Assembly (NCBI GenBank): GCA_028819565.1
Contig: JAPPLD010000016.1
Coordinates: forward strand, 1-48,350
Direction of reading: 5' to 3'
From: Gammaproteobacteria bacterium
Lineage (GTDB): Bacteria > Pseudomonadota > Gammaproteobacteria > Poriferisulfidales > Poriferisulfidaceae
Length of the DNA stretch: 48,350 nucleotides
Shown: positions 7,038 through 45,458 of the stretch, one piece after another
Numbering within the stretch: position 1 is the first letter of the stretch
Layout of the letters: each line of letters starts with the position of its first letter
Notes under the pieces: generated by a model
Databases searched by the model: none
What the model was told of the DNA's origin: nothing
Seen by the model: only the letters and a program-made list of their open reading frames with translations
Position numbers and translations under genes: made by a program

Positions 7038-8261
7038 ATGAGTCCATTCCAGCGCAGCCAGCTATCAACCCTTTTGGAAAGGGTCGAGGAGTGTCCAAAA
7101 GAACCTCCGCGACATATGATCGTGGTGACCGGGCCGCGCCAAACCGGAAAAACCACGCTGGTCCAGCAAGCCCTGGAACAAACCGACATCCCTTCTACCT
7201 ATGTGCGCGGCGACCAGCCCGTGCCGGCAGGTATTAACAAGGATAGTCTGTGGCTAGAACAGATCTGGAAGCAAGCTAGAAAAGACGCTGAAGAATCGGA
7301 ATTCGGACACCTCTTGGTGTTGGACGAAATCCAGAGAATTAGGGAGTGGTCCAGTGCGGTCAAGGTCTTGTGGGATGCCGATCGCTTCCACAAGCGCAAT
7401 CTCCGCGTCATCATTCTCGGCTCATCGCCATTGATGATGCAAAAAGGGCTCAGCGAAAGCATGGCGGGGCGCTTCGAGACCATCCGGTTGACCCAGTGGT
7501 CGTACCCGGAAATGTCCGAGGCATTCGGCTTCACCCTGGACCAGTATTTCTACTTCGGAGGCTACCCCGGTGCGGCTCCCTTGATCTATCGGCCGGAACG
7601 ATGGCAGCAGTATCTCCAGAGCGCAATCATCGAGACGAACATCGAGCGGGACATCATTGAGCGTATGGAAGTCCGCAAGCCTGCCCTGCTCAAGCAGTTG
7701 TTCGAAATAGGCTCGGAATTCAGCGCACAGATCGTGTCTTACAGGAACCTGCTCGGTCAACTCGACGATAAAGGTAATGTCACGACACTGGCAAGTTATC
7801 TGGATCTTCTGGGACGCGCCGGCCTGCTGGCGGGACTCCAGAAATATGCGGGAAACATCGTCCGGGTCAAACGGTCAGAACCAAAACTCCTGGTGCTGGA
7901 CTCCGGGCTCATGACCGCCAATTGCGGGTACACCTTCGAACAGGCAAGGGCGGACCGCAGTTTTTGGGGCCACTTAGTAGAAAGCGCTGTTGGCGCGCAC
8001 TTGTGCAATTCTGGTCTCCCCAACATAAAGGTCTACTACTGGCGGGAGCCTCCTCATGAAGTGGATTTCATCCTTCAGTACGGCCAAAGGCTTTTGGCCA
8101 TTGAAGTGAAAAGCGGGAGGCGAAAGAGAAATGTCTCCGGCCTAGCCAAGTTCAAGGAGCGGTTTCCGTCCGCAGACACGATGATAGTCGGAACGGGAGG
8201 GGTTCCGTTCAAGGAATTCCTGTCTATTCCGGCCCAGCACTGGTTCCACGGAAATGACTGA
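7038..8261 (+). CDS. AAA_14/DUF4143 ATPase with C-terminal PD-(D/E)XK-like domain
   Basis: This 407-residue P-loop ATPase is of the AAA_14 plus DUF4143 type, widespread in bacteria and without an agreed function. Walker A is VTGPRQTGKTT (residues 30-40), Walker B is HLLVLDEIQRI (91-101), and VIILGSSPLM holds the sensor serine. The C-terminal DUF4143 part has FWGHLVESAVGAHL followed by EVDFILQYGQRLLAIEVKSG, which reads as a PD-(D/E)XK core with D343, E356 and K358. The ATG at 7038 directly follows a good promoter. Its stop overlaps the next gene by 8 bp, so both products are translationally coupled and probably act together. Base composition is a little lower in GC than waaA. Function is inferred only as part of a defence-like cassette. 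Confidence 0.85.
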   Translation: MSPFQRSQLSTLLERVEECPKEPPRHMIVVTGPRQTGKTTLVQQALEQTDIPSTYVRGDQPVPAGINKDSLWLEQIWKQARKDAEESEFGHLLVLDEIQRIREWSSAVKVLWDADRFHKRNLRVIILGSSPLMMQKGLSESMAGRFETIRLTQWSYPEMSEAFGFTLDQYFYFGGYPGAAPLIYRPERWQQYLQSAIIETNIERDIIERMEVRKPALLKQLFEIGSEFSAQIVSYRNLLGQLDDKGNVTTLASYLDLLGRAGLLAGLQKYAGNIVRVKRSEPKLLVLDSGLMTANCGYTFEQARADRSFWGHLVESAVGAHLCNSGLPNIKVYYWREPPHEVDFILQYGQRLLAIEVKSGRRKRNVSGLAKFKERFPSADTMIVGTGGVPFKEFLSIPAQHWFHGND

Positions 8262-11200
8262 ATTCGCCCCCCGCACCGTTTCTGTCATCGAAGAGGGCCT
8301 GGAGGATAGTCTGGAAGCTGCCCCCCAGCGACTGGCAGCCTATCGGGATTGCCCGGCCTATGTCCTGCTGGGCTCGCCCGGAATCGGAAAAACCACCGCT
8401 TTTCGGCAAGAGGCGAAGGCGCATTCAAACGGCAAGCGCGTCCCGGCCCGGGGCTTTATTAATCTGGACAACCCTGAATGGCCTGACAAACTTCTGTTCA
8501 TCGACGGCTTGGACGAAATGCGGGCTGGGGCACAAGACGGACGGACACCTATCGATCAAATCCGCAGCAAACTTCAAAGGCTTGGATGTTCAAAGTTTCG
8601 CCTGTCCTGCCGCACGATTGACTGGTGGTGGACAAACGACCGGCAAAAACTGGAGCAACTCGGGATAGACATTCTGTTGTTGGTACTCGACCCGCTCACC
8701 GATGAAAGTATCCTAGAAGTCCTCCGGCTACATGGCAAGCCGAAAAACGGCAATCCCGAAGAATTTGTTTTCCAGGCACGCGCGCACGGCCTTGGCGAAT
8801 GGCTGAAGAATCCCCAAACCTTATTGCGACTGGCTGATTCCATCGACGAACAAGGTGGCTGGCCACACAGTCGTCGGGACTTGTACGAGAAAGCGTGCGA
8901 AACGCTGCTGTCTGAACCGAACGAGGAACACATCCGCTCCGGAGCTAGGCAAATCAGTCTGGACACCTTGTCGAAAACGGCGGGTCGCATGTGTGCTGTT
9001 CAGCTATTGAGTGGCGGTGCGGGCTACACGCTGCCCCCCGGCAAACCCGATAAGGATTACCCTGCGCTGGAGAAAATCGTCCCAATAGAGAACGGAAAGA
9101 AAACTGCACGAACTGAGGCTTTCGACAAAATCCCGGGACTGGAGCGGGTTGTACCCGAACACCAGTCTACGGCAGAGTTTTTGGGTGGACGCTACCTCGC
9201 TGAACAGGTCGAACGAGGTTTTTCCGCCAACCGGATTCTCGCATTGATGTCCAGTGCGGATAAGGTCGTCGTCCCGAAACTTCAGGGAGTCGCCGCCTGG
9301 TTTTCAGTGTACAGCCACTCAGGGAGAAAAAAACTGATTGAGAAGACCCCCTTGGAAATTACTCTCTATGGTGATGTCGAGTCTTTCGCTACCGAAGACA
9401 AGCTCCTATTGTTCGACAAACTAAAAGAAAAGACGAGCCATAATCCTTGGTGCATTGACATCGTACGACGAAGCACCCCGTTGCGAGGTCTGGCTAGCCC
9501 CGACCTGCATAGATATTTCAAGGAGACATTATGGCAACTGGCAGTCGGCGATGGCGAACAGGCTTTTCGTTACCTCGTGCTCAAAGCCCTTCACTGCAGC
9601 CCGACCCTACCGGAGATTTCAGACTCCCTGCTGGAAATCATCCGGGACGATAAGTCCTGGCCGGTCAACAAGGAACTGGCTCTCGACATTTTCATACGAA
9701 ATTGCGCAGGTACTGCAGAAACAGGGGGCCGCCTAAAAGAATTACTTTCTGAAATTAGGGAGGGCACTATACGAGATTCCCACGGCAGGTTACTGGATAC
9801 CGTATTGGCCGAGCTGTTCCCCCGGTACATCTCTGCCGATGAGACACTGGATTGCCTGATGGATTCGGGACAACCCTCTACCGCAACCTTCCACATCTCC
9901 TGGGCCGACCGCTTTGTCAAACAGTTACGCCCGGAGCAACTGACTGACATCCTCAACAAGTTGGTCGTCCGGGTCAATGATGCCAGAAAACCTAATCTTT
10001 CGCGGGCAAGTTTCAGGACATTTCGGACTTTTCTTGCCATTTTGCAAGGTATTGTTCCACCTGCGCCTGGCAAGGAAATCAGTTTGCTCAATCTCCGCCA
10101 CTGGCTGGAAGTCGCTTGGTGCTCGGAGATCCAGCACACCGTGGCCAGCACCTATAGGCAGTTGGCTTCTTCCGTTCATGATTGGCTCAAGCTCCAACCG
10201 GACAAACAGCGGGAGATATTTGAAAGCGGAGCTAGGGAGTGGACCGACACTAAGAATTTCAAATTGCTTGCACACGAAACAGGAAACTGGCTGTTCGGGC
10301 TACGCCCTGAGCCAGACTTCTGGCCTTGGTGCCTTGATCTCGCCATTCAGTCCCAAGCCCCGAAAACCGCAGAATTCTATCTCCGGCAAGTTGTCAGGGC
10401 TCTGTTTGATGGAAACACTGGAGTCAACCTTTCTCTGGACGACATCCAGGCGCGGATCGCCAAGCATCCAGAATTGGAAGAGACGCTTGAAGGCATGCTG
10501 GTTTGCCCTTTGCCCGAAGAGCACTTCAAGGACATCGAAGCGCGTCAGCGGCGAATAACTATAGACCTTCATGAGCGGGAGCAACTACACCAAAACTGGG
10601 TTGCAAACGTCAAGGCTCACGAGACTGAACTGCGCGAGAATCGTGGACCGTTGGGACTTCTTCACGATCTTGCCCTTGCCTACTTCGGTGGCTTTTATGA
10701 TGTCGCGGGCGATCAGCCACTGGAGCGAATCTGCGACCTGCTGGGCCACGACTCCTATTTGGTTCAATTAGTACTCAAATCTTTTAAAAATTCCATCTCG
10801 CACGCAGACACTCCGAGCGTGGGTGAGATCATTCGCCACGCAGAACAAGGCCGGCCCCACCTATTAACTTATCCCTGTCTGGCCGGATTGGAAGAAACTG
10901 GAATTCCACCTTCGACAGATCAGAAAATCCGACAGGCATTAACTTTTCATTACTTCGCTGATTACGATCTTTTGGGTGAAGTCAACCCAGTATGGTACAA
11001 ATCCCTGCTTGTCAAACAACCTGAACTTGTTGCTGAAATTCTCATCAGGCGCATTCGTTTTCAAATGCGTAAAGGAGAAGAATTCTTAACTGACTCGTAC
11101 GAGCTCGCTTTCTCAGGCACCCATGCGAAAGTCGCCAGCCTGGCAGCCTTGCCGTTGCTCAAGTCCTTTCCGATCCGCTGTGCCACTCGACAACTTCATG

Positions 11201-12333
11201 ACTTGAGACATCTGCTCGCGGCGGCACTACTTCATTGCAAGCACGCCGGTCTACGAAAACTGTTGAAAGAGAAACTGGCGGGAAGCAAGACGAAAAGCAT
11301 GAATATTGGTCAGCGCGTCTACTGGTTGACTGCCGGATTTCTCATCTCTCCAAAAACCTGCCGCCATCAATTGGAGTCATACCTCCATCAAGACGACCGT
11401 CGGATGAGACACTTCGCAGAATTTGTCTGCCAAGGCAATACATCACCAGAATGGGGTGACCTGTTGAAAGGAAAATGCCTTGTATCCCTCATTCAATTAC
11501 TCGGTTTCTCTTTCCGGTACATCTCTCTTGATGAGGGAATGGCATGGAGTTCCCCTCCTATGGCCGCCTCAAGCATGATCCGCGAATTGACCAATCATCT
11601 AGCAAACGATCCTTCTCCAACTGCGACAGAGGCCCTCAGCCATCTAGTCGCCGATAACTCTCTATCCCAGTGGCGGATCTATCTTCAGGACGCAGCCGAT
11701 GAACAAAGTTCTCTCCGTCGCCAGTCCGAATTTGTACATTGTAGTGTGGATGAGCTTCTCCAAACCTTGGACAAAAAGAAGCCGGCCAGTATGGACGACC
11801 TAGTCGTGCTTCTCCTAGAAGGCTTCGATGAAATGAGCAAAAAAATCAGAGACGGCAGCACAAACGACTGGCATCAATACTGGAATCAATCACCCAAGCG
11901 AAGCCCGAAAGAATGGAGTCCGAAGGATGAACCCGACTGTCGGGATGCATTCCTTTCCGATTTGCAAGAAAAACTCAAACCTCTGGACGTCCATGCATAC
12001 AGAGAAGGCTCTTATGCGGATGATACGAAAGCCGACATTCAGGTGTCCTATAAAAACCTCAACCTCCCCATCGAGGTGAAGAAGAACCATTCCAAGGATC
12101 TTTGGAAGGGGATTAAAGAACAACTTGTTCCGAAATACACCCGGGACCCCGGCGCAGATGGCCGGGGAATCTACCTAGTGTTTTGGTTCGGAGAAGAATT
12201 CACAGTCAAAAGCCCTGAAATCGAGGTGCGTCCGGCCAACCCCGACGAACTCCAGCACCAACTAGAGGACTCCCTGACACCGGAAGAAGCAGACAAGGTG
12301 TCCATTCACGTGATTGATGTCGCCCGACCCTGA
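8254..12333 (+). CDS. NACHT-like STAND NTPase with helical repeats and C-terminal nuclease-like domain
   Basis: This 1359-residue protein starts inside the end of the DUF4143 gene. Walker A is GSPGIGKTT (residues 40-48), Walker B is LLFIDGLDEMRAG (80-92), and RLSCRTIDWWW (116-126) follows as in NACHT domains. HQSTAEFLGGRYLAEQ (about 303-318) is the winged-helix hallmark that closes a NACHT module. The next roughly 850 residues are leucine- and tryptophan-rich helices, as in STAND sensor regions. Near the end, D1261, E1274 and K1276 (KADIQVSY and LPIEVKK) form a PD-(D/E)XK-like core, followed by GIYLVFWFG. The effector-like part is therefore C-terminal, with no effector before the P-loop, unlike the usual Avs arrangement. 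By family logic it may sense a phage or plasmid product and degrade nucleic acid; this is inference. The frame is intact. Confidence 0.8.
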   Translation: MTEFAPRTVSVIEEGLEDSLEAAPQRLAAYRDCPAYVLLGSPGIGKTTAFRQEAKAHSNGKRVPARGFINLDNPEWPDKLLFIDGLDEMRAGAQDGRTPIDQIRSKLQRLGCSKFRLSCRTIDWWWTNDRQKLEQLGIDILLLVLDPLTDESILEVLRLHGKPKNGNPEEFVFQARAHGLGEWLKNPQTLLRLADSIDEQGGWPHSRRDLYEKACETLLSEPNEEHIRSGARQISLDTLSKTAGRMCAVQLLSGGAGYTLPPGKPDKDYPALEKIVPIENGKKTARTEAFDKIPGLERVVPEHQSTAEFLGGRYLAEQVERGFSANRILALMSSADKVVVPKLQGVAAWFSVYSHSGRKKLIEKTPLEITLYGDVESFATEDKLLLFDKLKEKTSHNPWCIDIVRRSTPLRGLASPDLHRYFKETLWQLAVGDGEQAFRYLVLKALHCSPTLPEISDSLLEIIRDDKSWPVNKELALDIFIRNCAGTAETGGRLKELLSEIREGTIRDSHGRLLDTVLAELFPRYISADETLDCLMDSGQPSTATFHISWADRFVKQLRPEQLTDILNKLVVRVNDARKPNLSRASFRTFRTFLAILQGIVPPAPGKEISLLNLRHWLEVAWCSEIQHTVASTYRQLASSVHDWLKLQPDKQREIFESGAREWTDTKNFKLLAHETGNWLFGLRPEPDFWPWCLDLAIQSQAPKTAEFYLRQVVRALFDGNTGVNLSLDDIQARIAKHPELEETLEGMLVCPLPEEHFKDIEARQRRITIDLHEREQLHQNWVANVKAHETELRENRGPLGLLHDLALAYFGGFYDVAGDQPLERICDLLGHDSYLVQLVLKSFKNSISHADTPSVGEIIRHAEQGRPHLLTYPCLAGLEETGIPPSTDQKIRQALTFHYFADYDLLGEVNPVWYKSLLVKQPELVAEILIRRIRFQMRKGEEFLTDSYELAFSGTHAKVASLAALPLLKSFPIRCATRQLHDLRHLLAAALLHCKHAGLRKLLKEKLAGSKTKSMNIGQRVYWLTAGFLISPKTCRHQLESYLHQDDRRMRHFAEFVCQGNTSPEWGDLLKGKCLVSLIQLLGFSFRYISLDEGMAWSSPPMAASSMIRELTNHLANDPSPTATEALSHLVADNSLSQWRIYLQDAADEQSSLRRQSEFVHCSVDELLQTLDKKKPASMDDLVVLLLEGFDEMSKKIRDGSTNDWHQYWNQSPKRSPKEWSPKDEPDCRDAFLSDLQEKLKPLDVHAYREGSYADDTKADIQVSYKNLNLPIEVKKNHSKDLWKGIKEQLVPKYTRDPGADGRGIYLVFWFGEEFTVKSPEIEVRPANPDELQHQLEDSLTPEEADKVSIHVIDVARP

Positions 12334-32519: not shown

Positions 32520-32810
32520 ATGGTGATGATTATGACGCTGCTTTCCATTCACAGCCCTTTTGAGATCCAGCAAAAACTGGCTAACGCCGTCCGCGCCAAG
32601 CGAAAAAAGATGAAACTCTCACGCCAGGCCTTGGCCGAGCACAGCACGGTGCCTGCTCCAACTATCAAACGTTTCGAGACCACCGGGGAAATTTCCTTGC
32701 GCCAGTTCGTCATGCTGTGGCAGTGCGTGGACCGCTTGGATACGCTGGCCGCACTGGCGAATCCGCCGAAACCTACCCCGCGTACCATTACCGAGGTTTT
32801 GGTCTCCTGA
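32520..32810 (+). CDS. hipB: HipB-like antitoxin, XRE family DNA-binding protein
   Basis: This 96-residue helix-turn-helix protein has KLANAVRAKRKKMKLSRQAL, then AEHSTVPAPTIKRFETTGEISL, the XRE fold at about residues 18-60, and VDRLDTLAALANPPKP at the C-terminus. It would repress the hipBA promoter by binding the two palindromes upstream and hold HipA inactive. Three in-frame ATGs lie close together (32520, 32526, 32532); GGTGAT before the third makes that start possible. The stop overlaps the hipA ATG by one base (TGATG). Confidence 0.85.
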   Translation: MVMIMTLLSIHSPFEIQQKLANAVRAKRKKMKLSRQALAEHSTVPAPTIKRFETTGEISLRQFVMLWQCVDRLDTLAALANPPKPTPRTITEVLVS

Positions 32811-34105
32811 TGTTTCGGCCTGTCGACAAGCTCCGAGTCTCTCGGCGTCTAAGCGACGGACGAAAAGTGCAAGTCGGGGAACTCGCGCAGAACAGCCGCG
32901 CGGTCTTCTTCCAGTATGACGCTGAATATCTGGAACGCTTCCACAGCCTGTCTCCTTTTACGCTCTTCTTCAACAACGAGTTACAACAAGCTCCGGCAAG
33001 ACCCCACTATGGGTTGCACGGTGTTTTCGCCGATTCGCTTCCGGACGGATGGGGCCTGTCACTGATGGACCAGGTCTTCACCCGACACGGCCTAGCTCTA
33101 GATCAGGTGACGGTTATGGACCGCCTCGCTTATATGGGTAAGCAGGGTCTAGGCGCCCTCAGCTACGATCCGATTTCTGAATTTTCACCGGACGAACCAG
33201 ACGATCTGATCGACATAGCAGATCTAGGCAAAAGTGCCGTGCAATTTTTCGATGGCCTGACCACGACGGTCACGGCAGCGCTGGCTCGTCACGGTGGCAG
33301 TCCCGGCGGCTCCCGGCCGAAAGCACAAATCCACATGTCACCCGGGGATGTCCGACATGCTTCCACGGTGCCTCAACCCGAACTGGAGCCGTGGATCGTG
33401 AAGTTCACCTCGGAGCGCCTGCCGCTGAAACACCAAGAAGGGTTATGCGAGGCCGCATACCTGACCCTCGCCGAAAACGCCGGTATTAAGGTTCCCGACT
33501 GGCGACTCATCGACCCTCCGGATGATTTTCCAGCTCCCGCCTGGCTAGCCCTGCGCAGGTTTGATTGCCCTCCTGACAATCCTGGAAACGGTCGCTTTCA
33601 CATGCACACTCTGTGCGGCCTCCTGGATGCAGACTACGCCCAACCTTCCCTAGACTATGAAACCGTCATCAAAGCCACCATGTCGCTCTGCCAAAGCCCA
33701 GTCGCCGGGCAAGCGCAATTTGCCAGAGCCATATTCAACTTGTTCGCCTGCAATCAAGACGATCACAGCAAAAACTGGTCGCTTTTGATGGACGACAATG
33801 GGAGATGGAACCCGGCTCCGTTCTACGATGCCACGTTCAGCCCACATCCATACGGAGAACATACGACAGCCTTCATGGGACATGGCAAGACCCCATCATT
33901 TGAGGCGGTGCGTCAACTGGCTTTACTTGCCGGCTTGAAAAATTGGAAACAGGCCAAAGACGTGATTGATCGGATCGTGGAGGCGATCGGTCAATGGCCG
34001 ACAGTCGCAAAAGAGTTAGACGTCAAGGATGACACCCGTAAACATATACAACAACACCTCGAAACTATCCGTGCGCAAAACCGGCATCTGCTCACGGCAT
34101 CTTAG
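32810..34105 (+). CDS. hipA: HipA-like serine/threonine kinase toxin
   Basis: This 431-residue protein has a PI3K-like kinase fold close in length to E. coli HipA (440), which phosphorylates glutamyl-tRNA synthetase and causes persistence. Visible motifs are LPDGWG (77-82), the phosphate-binding and autophosphorylation loop SPGGSRPKAQI (164-174), the catalytic NQDDHSKNW (315-323) and the metal-binding FYD (338-340). All look intact. It is coupled to hipB, which should inhibit it. Its stop codon overlaps the 3' end of the convergent M14 gene by 4 bases. The target of this subgroup is not known. The AT-rich promoter suggests acquisition by transfer. Confidence 0.93.
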   Translation: MFRPVDKLRVSRRLSDGRKVQVGELAQNSRAVFFQYDAEYLERFHSLSPFTLFFNNELQQAPARPHYGLHGVFADSLPDGWGLSLMDQVFTRHGLALDQVTVMDRLAYMGKQGLGALSYDPISEFSPDEPDDLIDIADLGKSAVQFFDGLTTTVTAALARHGGSPGGSRPKAQIHMSPGDVRHASTVPQPELEPWIVKFTSERLPLKHQEGLCEAAYLTLAENAGIKVPDWRLIDPPDDFPAPAWLALRRFDCPPDNPGNGRFHMHTLCGLLDADYAQPSLDYETVIKATMSLCQSPVAGQAQFARAIFNLFACNQDDHSKNWSLLMDDNGRWNPAPFYDATFSPHPYGEHTTAFMGHGKTPSFEAVRQLALLAGLKNWKQAKDVIDRIVEAIGQWPTVAKELDVKDDTRKHIQQHLETIRAQNRHLLTAS

Positions 34106-43412: not shown

Positions 43413-43475
43413 GAGGGAGCACCAAAAATAACTTTCAGGCAGTTTAACAAATGGCAAAAAATTCAAGATTAACCA

Positions 43476-43499
43476 TAGGGTACTAACTTTAGGGTACTA
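43476..43499. repeat. Tandem 10-bp direct repeat before the restriction operon
   Basis: TAGGGTACTA occurs twice (43476-43485 and 43490-43499) with a 14-base period. It lies between divergent hyuB and the EcoRV-like gene, 79 bases before the latter's ATG. Each copy holds the palindrome GTAC. It could be an operator; no controller gene is seen. Confidence 0.6.
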
Positions 43500-43577
43500 T
43501 GATTACGGGAAATCACCCACCCTGCAGACCTTGTTCAAATCGATTGAAAACAGCCTCTATCTCGATTGAGCACCAAC

Positions 43578-44429
43578 ATGGCATCAGCCAAGAAATCTGG
43601 AAGATCGACCGAAGCGCCAAAAAAACGCTTTGGCAGACTGCTCGCCGATTTCGTAGCAGAATTGGGCCCGCAAATTGTGACAGAAAGCGGAGAGTGGGTT
43701 GTCAAGGGATTTATTGACACGGACCAACGCATCTATATGGTCTCATCGGACACAAAATTAATCTCGAAGATATTGGAAATTCATCTCCTTCCACATTTGT
43801 TTTATTTTGCCAAGATACACGACTACGAAATGATGTTGGCAGACCATCAAAACTACTATCCCGACATTACCTTCATCGAAGATACTGGCGTTAAGTTTGC
43901 TCTTGATTTCAAAACCTCATACAGGCTCCCCAACAATCCAGAACACTGCAATGGTTTCACCCTTGGCTCACATGGAGAGTATTTCATCGATAGGCTCAGC
44001 ACCAAAAACATTCAGTTCCCATATAGCGAATATTCTGGTCATTTTTGCCTGGGCATTATCTACAATCGCCAAGAAGAACAAGATGCAGAAAGGCCTGAGC
44101 GTTACCCAATTGTGGAGATTGATTCAATCGGATCGGCAATTCGGGATCTTGAACTTTTCGTGGTGGAAAAATGGCGCATTGCGAGCGATAAAAGGGGAAG
44201 CGGAAACACAGCAAATATTGGCAGTATCAAACATATCGGAGACATGAAAGCTGGAAAAGGCATGTTTCACAAACTGGGGGAGAAATGGTTTGATGATTAT
44301 TGGGTGAACTATGGGAAAATCACGAGTGAAAGTGACCAACCAATCAAGTCACTCAAGGATTTTGTTAAATATAGAGGAGGCGACCTTTCTAAAGTGGTAG
44401 AAAAACATCCGCCAAATAGAAAAAAATGA
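43578..44429 (+). CDS. Type II restriction endonuclease of the EcoRV family
   Basis: This 283-residue protein aligns by eye along most of EcoRV. QNYYPDITFIEDTGVKFALD resembles the EcoRV segment QNHYPDFTLYK...IAIDIKT and supplies the catalytic D96, D110 and K112 (D74, D90 and K92 in EcoRV). The recognition loop GSGNTANIGSI (207-217) matches EcoRV GSGNTTNIGSI, with T187 changed to alanine. YGSDTK-like SSDTKLISKILE and the C-terminal WFDDYWVNYGK also match. Predicted target GATATC with a blunt cut is inference from this similarity. It has about 25 extra N-terminal residues. The ATG at 43578 is chosen over a TTG at 43566. The gene is far more AT-rich than its neighbours and overlaps the methylase by 4 bases (ATGA). 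Confidence 0.93.
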   Translation: MASAKKSGRSTEAPKKRFGRLLADFVAELGPQIVTESGEWVVKGFIDTDQRIYMVSSDTKLISKILEIHLLPHLFYFAKIHDYEMMLADHQNYYPDITFIEDTGVKFALDFKTSYRLPNNPEHCNGFTLGSHGEYFIDRLSTKNIQFPYSEYSGHFCLGIIYNRQEEQDAERPERYPIVEIDSIGSAIRDLELFVVEKWRIASDKRGSGNTANIGSIKHIGDMKAGKGMFHKLGEKWFDDYWVNYGKITSESDQPIKSLKDFVKYRGGDLSKVVEKHPPNRKK

Positions 44430-45337
44430 GTACAGTCAAAGTTCCTCCAATCAAGTCACAGGGCATTAAAACAAAACTTGTGCCGTGGATTCGTGAGGCT
44501 TTGGACTGGGATGGAAAAGGCACATGGGTTGAACCATTCATGGGAACCGGTGTGGTTGGTTTTAATGTGGCACCCAAGCAAGCTTTATTCTGCGACACTA
44601 ACCCTCATCTGATTACGTTTTATCAAGCAGTCAAAAAGCACTCCATAACCCCGCCCATTGCCAAAGCATACCTCGAAGAAGAAGGCAAACATATGAAAGA
44701 GATGGGGGGTGAACATTACTATCGCATACGAGAAAGGTTTAACAACAAGAATGACCCACTGGATTTCCTTTTCTTGAATCGATCTTGTTTTAACGGGATG
44801 ATCCGTTTCAATGGGAAAGGTAAATTCAACGTGCCATGGGGCCACAAATCTAACCGCTTTGCCAAAGCTTACATAACCAAAATTATCAACCAAATTAGGT
44901 GGGTTCAGGAACTCATGGACAACTCCGATTGGAGATTTGAAGTGTGTTCTTTTGAGTCCGCGATCCACAGAGCTTCTGCAAATGATTTTATTTACTGCGA
45001 CCCCCCTTATATAGATCGCCATACCGATTACTACAACGGATGGGAAGAAGAACAAGAAAAGCGGCTATTCGTTACACTGCGTGCATCTGATGCGAAATTT
45101 CTCTTGTCAACATGGCACAGTAATAAATACCGAGAAAATCCATATATTGCCGACTTATGGTCCGAGTTTCGTGTGCTCACCAAAGATCACTTCTATCACG
45201 TTGGAGCATCTGAAAGAAATCGTAATTCGGTAAAGGAGGCGCTTATCGCGAATTATGTAACCCATGCTGAAGAATTCCAGGGGGCTGATCGTTCCATGTC
45301 TGACCATTTAATTTCAAATACGCATGTGGGAGCATAA
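44426..45337 (+). CDS. DNA adenine-N6 methyltransferase of the M.EcoRV/Dam family
   Basis: This 303-residue class alpha (D12) methyltransferase is closely similar to M.EcoRV: the start VPPIKSQGIKTKLVP, the SAM motif VEPFMGTGVVGFNVAPK (35-51), FLFLNRSCFNGMIRFNGKG (114-132), RFAKAYITKI and the catalytic DPPY (192-195) in YCDPPYIDRHTDYYNGW. It should methylate adenine in the site cut by the adjacent nuclease, so protecting host DNA. The ATGA overlap with the nuclease stop couples their synthesis. The C-terminus (HVGASERNRNSVKEALIANY) also matches M.EcoRV. Base use is AT-rich like the nuclease gene, and the PuuD-like gene after it is not. Confidence 0.95.
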   Translation: MSTVKVPPIKSQGIKTKLVPWIREALDWDGKGTWVEPFMGTGVVGFNVAPKQALFCDTNPHLITFYQAVKKHSITPPIAKAYLEEEGKHMKEMGGEHYYRIRERFNNKNDPLDFLFLNRSCFNGMIRFNGKGKFNVPWGHKSNRFAKAYITKIINQIRWVQELMDNSDWRFEVCSFESAIHRASANDFIYCDPPYIDRHTDYYNGWEEEQEKRLFVTLRASDAKFLLSTWHSNKYRENPYIADLWSEFRVLTKDHFYHVGASERNRNSVKEALIANYVTHAEEFQGADRSMSDHLISNTHVGA

Positions 45338-45458
45338 AAGTATGACTTTTTTCTAAAGAAAGATTTGTTCCATACATATCAAGGCTTTAGATCGACGCCC
45401 TGCGCAACCCAAACTTTGCTACAATTCACCTGACAGTGATGTCGCAGGAGACGTCCCC

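Follow-up and report, generated by a model that had tools for sequence, protein, structure and literature searches.

The catalytic residues of the restriction endonuclease EcoRV are D74, D90 and K92, its recognition elements are the R- and Q-loops, and its Lys38 intrudes into the minor groove (PMC4081073). Regulation of the EcoRV system relies on overlapping divergent promoters of C/R and M (PMC11736437). In the EcoRI and Eco29kI operons, R precedes M, a promoter located within R can drive M expression, and reverse promoters act on the forward ones (PMC3874152). Our literature search found no paper on EcoRV T187 or on C-less relatives of EcoRV.

Here, we analyzed a gammaproteobacterial contig stretch of 48,350 nucleotides (JAPPLD010000016.1), the whole of which is referred to as the window. 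The preliminary description had reported an EcoRV-type restriction-modification (R-M) operon on the chromosome. Indeed, both open reading frames, encoding a nuclease (R) and a methylase (M), were recovered at the positions given there, with family-profile E-values far beyond chance, and the chromosomal location was supported. The features are as follows.

43450 to 45413, no strand: A+T-rich inserted segment (the cassette), GC 42.8%, delimited by alignment with the insert-free sites in G001, G005 and G002; edges approximate (left 43449-43470, right 45413-45437)
43470 to 43497, plus strand: two tandem 14-bp repeats, TAACCATAGGGTAC and TAACTTTAGGGTAC, upstream of R
43578 to 44429, plus strand: R gene, ATG start, 283 aa; PF09233, E 8.5e-101
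44426 to 44429, plus strand: stop-start overlap ATGA of R and M, read from the sequence; couples R and M
44426 to 45337, plus strand: M gene, 303 aa; PF02086, E 4.3e-50
L012:1249-1407 and L013:846-983: broken nuclease remnants of genomes G187 and G047

R is followed by M on the same strand with a 4-base overlap, the start of M lying inside the stop of R, and a TTG at 43566 is in frame with R upstream of its ATG. A 4-base R/M overlap was also found in L005, L009/L040, L010 and L032/L041. Taken as a whole, the locus is very probably a type IIP R-M system of the EcoRV family which was horizontally acquired into an intergenic gap and would act on GATATC.

The cassette has a GC content of 42.8% versus 58.4% in the remainder of the window, where the lowest-GC other 1.9-kb stretch has 50.2%, confirming the AT bias against a GC-rich backbone that had been described. 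A PF09233 gene is present in one of six genomes of the genus. In G001, G005 and G002, the site has the same flanking genes, one hydantoinase-B-like and one urate-oxidase-N-like, with a gap of about 130-145 bp and no insert, and the flanking DNA is up to ~96% identical to that of the siblings. We favor insertion of the cassette in the present lineage over its loss in all others, because insertion is simpler and agrees with the composition. The horizontal acquisition proposed earlier is thus well supported by the composition, the distribution in the genus, the three empty sibling sites and the different content of the site in a fourth sibling. The edges of the cassette showed neither mobile-element genes nor clear target duplications.

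In the sibling G003 (L029:1967-2649), a FitAB-like pair consisting of a PIN-domain toxin and a FitA-like antitoxin occupies the gap in which the cassette lies, hinting that this gap is a minor site of insertion for modules of the addiction type. This toxin-antitoxin pair at the same site, and the postsegregational killing shown by examined type II R-M systems (PMC3874152), are in favor of an R-M system that owes its maintenance mainly to selfish addiction and less to defence. However, such a role is compatible with defence, and the common site may be merely a neutral gap between genes. We regard maintenance mainly by addiction as possible but on balance doubtful.

Two other loci were observed in the window. 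At 7038-12333, an AAA_14/DUF4143 ATPase matches the PADLOC candidate defence system PDC-S01 (E 1e-160). It overlaps the beginning of an ORF of 1359 aa, in which a P-loop is apparent and which gave no Pfam or PADLOC match. At 32520-34105, a HipA-like kinase gene with a small HTH-like ORF upstream (identified by eye) forms an apparent HipBA toxin-antitoxin pair adjoining an A+T-rich stretch.

R matches PF09233 over nearly the complete profile (positions 2-243 of 244) and shares 33% identity with EcoRV. In a phmmer search of the PDB with R, solved structures of EcoRV were the sole matches (E 4e-35). Further, the AlphaFold2 model of R (pLDDT 85.5, pTM 0.84) was searched with Foldseek, and the first 39 matches were EcoRV crystal structures, the best with an E-value of 3.3e-18, a probability of 1.00 and a TM of ~0.81 by target. 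R is therefore predicted to have the EcoRV fold. As had been claimed for D96, D110 and K112, alignment matches these residues to EcoRV D74, D90 and K92, so that the PD-(D/E)xK centre is kept; together with E67, at the position of EcoRV E45, which is also kept, they make up the catalytic set of R. EcoRV T37, K38, T93 and K119 are conserved in R, as are the Q-loop contacts Q69 and N70 and, in the R-loop, G/S/G/N/T at EcoRV positions 182-186 and N188. The recognition loop of R, G207-S216, reads GSGNTANIGSI, which agrees with the preliminary description, including an alanine at the EcoRV T187 position. R also departs from EcoRV by T94 to S, R221 to K and R226 to S, and its N-terminus is ~20 residues longer.

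M matches the D12 methylase family PF02086 (E 4.3e-50) and NCBIfam TIGR00571 dam (E 9.8e-59), is 59% identical to M.EcoRV of pLG13-type E. coli plasmids, in line with the match reported before, and retains the SAM motif EPFMGTG and the catalytic motif DPPY. Judged by its sequence, M is an M.EcoRV-type Dam/D12 adenine-N6 DNA methyltransferase. An M.EcoRV-type M adjoins R in many relatives. Because of the 59% identity of M to M.EcoRV and the conservation of the base-contact residues in R, GATATC is the likely target of both enzymes.

The spacing between the two aspartates is 14 in R and 16 in EcoRV, two residues shorter as described. This spacing and the T187 change had been put forward as features that could alter flanking preference or activity, but both are unremarkable within the family, and their use as distinguishing features is not supported. 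Among 13 other aligned homologues, position 187 is A in 6, K in 6 and T in EcoRV; A is the rule in the subclade of R, and T, K, R or A is found elsewhere. The D-to-D spacing runs from 14 to 20 across the aligned homologues and is also 14 in L002, L003, L033 and L034. In the tree, several forks of which have moderate support only, R groups with nucleases that have A187 and precede M, namely those of G052 (58% identical to R), viral contig L042, G320, Rhodothermus, Antarctobacter and G626. The branches leading to R and M are rather long (0.87 and 1.05 substitutions per site), and drift in activity is therefore possible. These long branches, the R identity of only 33% to EcoRV and the changes R221K, R226S and T94S are among the points that stand against an EcoRV-like system acting on GATATC. 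Low identity and the differences at position 187, R221 and R226 could reflect a family member whose recognition has drifted to another hexamer or to a version of GATATC that is degenerate or depends on the flanks. However, the examined Q- and R-loop contacts are conserved, M is 59% identical to M.EcoRV, and R and M would need to have changed jointly; we consider such drift improbable.

The description of EcoRV as having few known homologues holds only loosely: EcoRV-type matches occur in 7 of 369 genomes of the class and 5 of 398 of the phylum (own genome counted), yet also in 23 viral contigs. Within the family, K187 nucleases (L002:4239-6120, L003:4879-6792, L036:3313-5171, L037:3393-5271 and L038:2657-4596) adjoin a longer, different D12-class methylase of 357-377 aa, which is not of the M.EcoRV type. 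Thirteen viral contigs (L049-L061) encode closely similar short EcoRV-type nucleases of 197 aa; no recognizable M.EcoRV-type or longer D12 methylase was found in their fetched flanks, and the next ORF in L052 and L061 is ThyX-type thymidylate synthase-like by eye. In G187 and G047, which belong to one family of the same class, only C-terminal EcoRV-type nuclease remnants with internal stops are present.

The host genome contains 388 GATATC sites in 1.80 Mb (~216 per Mb), and the four genomes of the genus that are more complete and lack the system have roughly 187-208 per Mb. With these sibling counts per Mb as the baseline (genome sizes rounded), GATATC is not avoided in the host genome. The cassette itself contains zero GATATC. 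The undepleted sites fit methylation protection, recent arrival or an inactive nuclease equally. An inactive or silent nuclease, leaving mainly a solitary GATATC methylase, would also suit the long R branch, but the R frame is open over its full length and has lost none of the catalytic residues, M sits on an equally long branch and the truly broken copies of the class (G047, G187) look different, which leaves this reading little credit.

For the preferred EcoRV-family system, we infer that M would add m6A at GATATC and thereby shield the host, and that R would form a homodimer which, with Mg2+ at the D96/D110/K112 centre, makes a blunt cut (GAT/ATC) at GATATC sites lacking the modification when phage or plasmid DNA comes in. 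The preliminary description had overlooked that the operon lacks both the controller gene and the divergent layout of EcoRV. No HTH-type controller ORF was found in the cassette. Two small ORFs were considered as hidden controllers and rejected: the 72-aa ORF at 43499-43717 has no family match and no match to C.EcoRV, and the 65-aa ORF at 43535-43732 has no family match. Since R precedes M without a controller, M-first timing must have another source, of which promoters inside R or antisense control would be the simplest. A consensus scan for promoters and terminators gave matches not above the shuffled expectation, and no promoter is claimed. The 14-bp tandem repeats are a possible operator or promoter element, with no evident counterpart by eye in the upstream regions of relatives. 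Tandem R-M layouts were also found in L005, L006, L010 and L039-L045. It is conceivable, and we suggest it tentatively, that the present locus belongs to a separate branch of the EcoRV family that is C-less, has R before M and is timed by promoters inside R as in EcoRI; the repeats may be part of its control. If so, one enzyme family would operate under two unrelated control schemes.

The controller-free tandem layout of the EcoRV family is already in public records, some of them annotated as EcoRV family, and the present locus leaves existing knowledge of restriction unchanged and is of low surprise. With it, the EcoRV family gains a divergent chromosomal member for which a clean comparison with empty sites is available, and the controller-free tandem layout is seen to occur in the family. 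This might be used to compare the establishment of a single restriction specificity in new hosts between systems that have a controller protein and systems that lack one. The EcoRV system of E. coli plasmid pLG13 (NC_005019) shares PF09233, the fold, the catalytic and base-contact residues and the M type with the present system, but its C gene overlaps R and its M is divergent, whereas R and M here are tandem, overlapping and C-less. The pairs of Rhodothermus marinus pRMAR01 (WP_244870288.1/WP_012845362.1) and Antarctobacter pSMS3-1 are likewise tandem R-M with no annotated adjacent C, and have A at 187 and an N-terminal extension as here; their identities to the present pair are 47-48% for R and 53-55% for M. 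They differ in being plasmid-borne and in having a D-D spacing of 16 instead of 14. EcoRI and Eco29kI, in which intragenic and reverse promoters have been demonstrated, resemble the present system in layout only, with R before M in one operon, and have other specificities and belong to other enzyme families.
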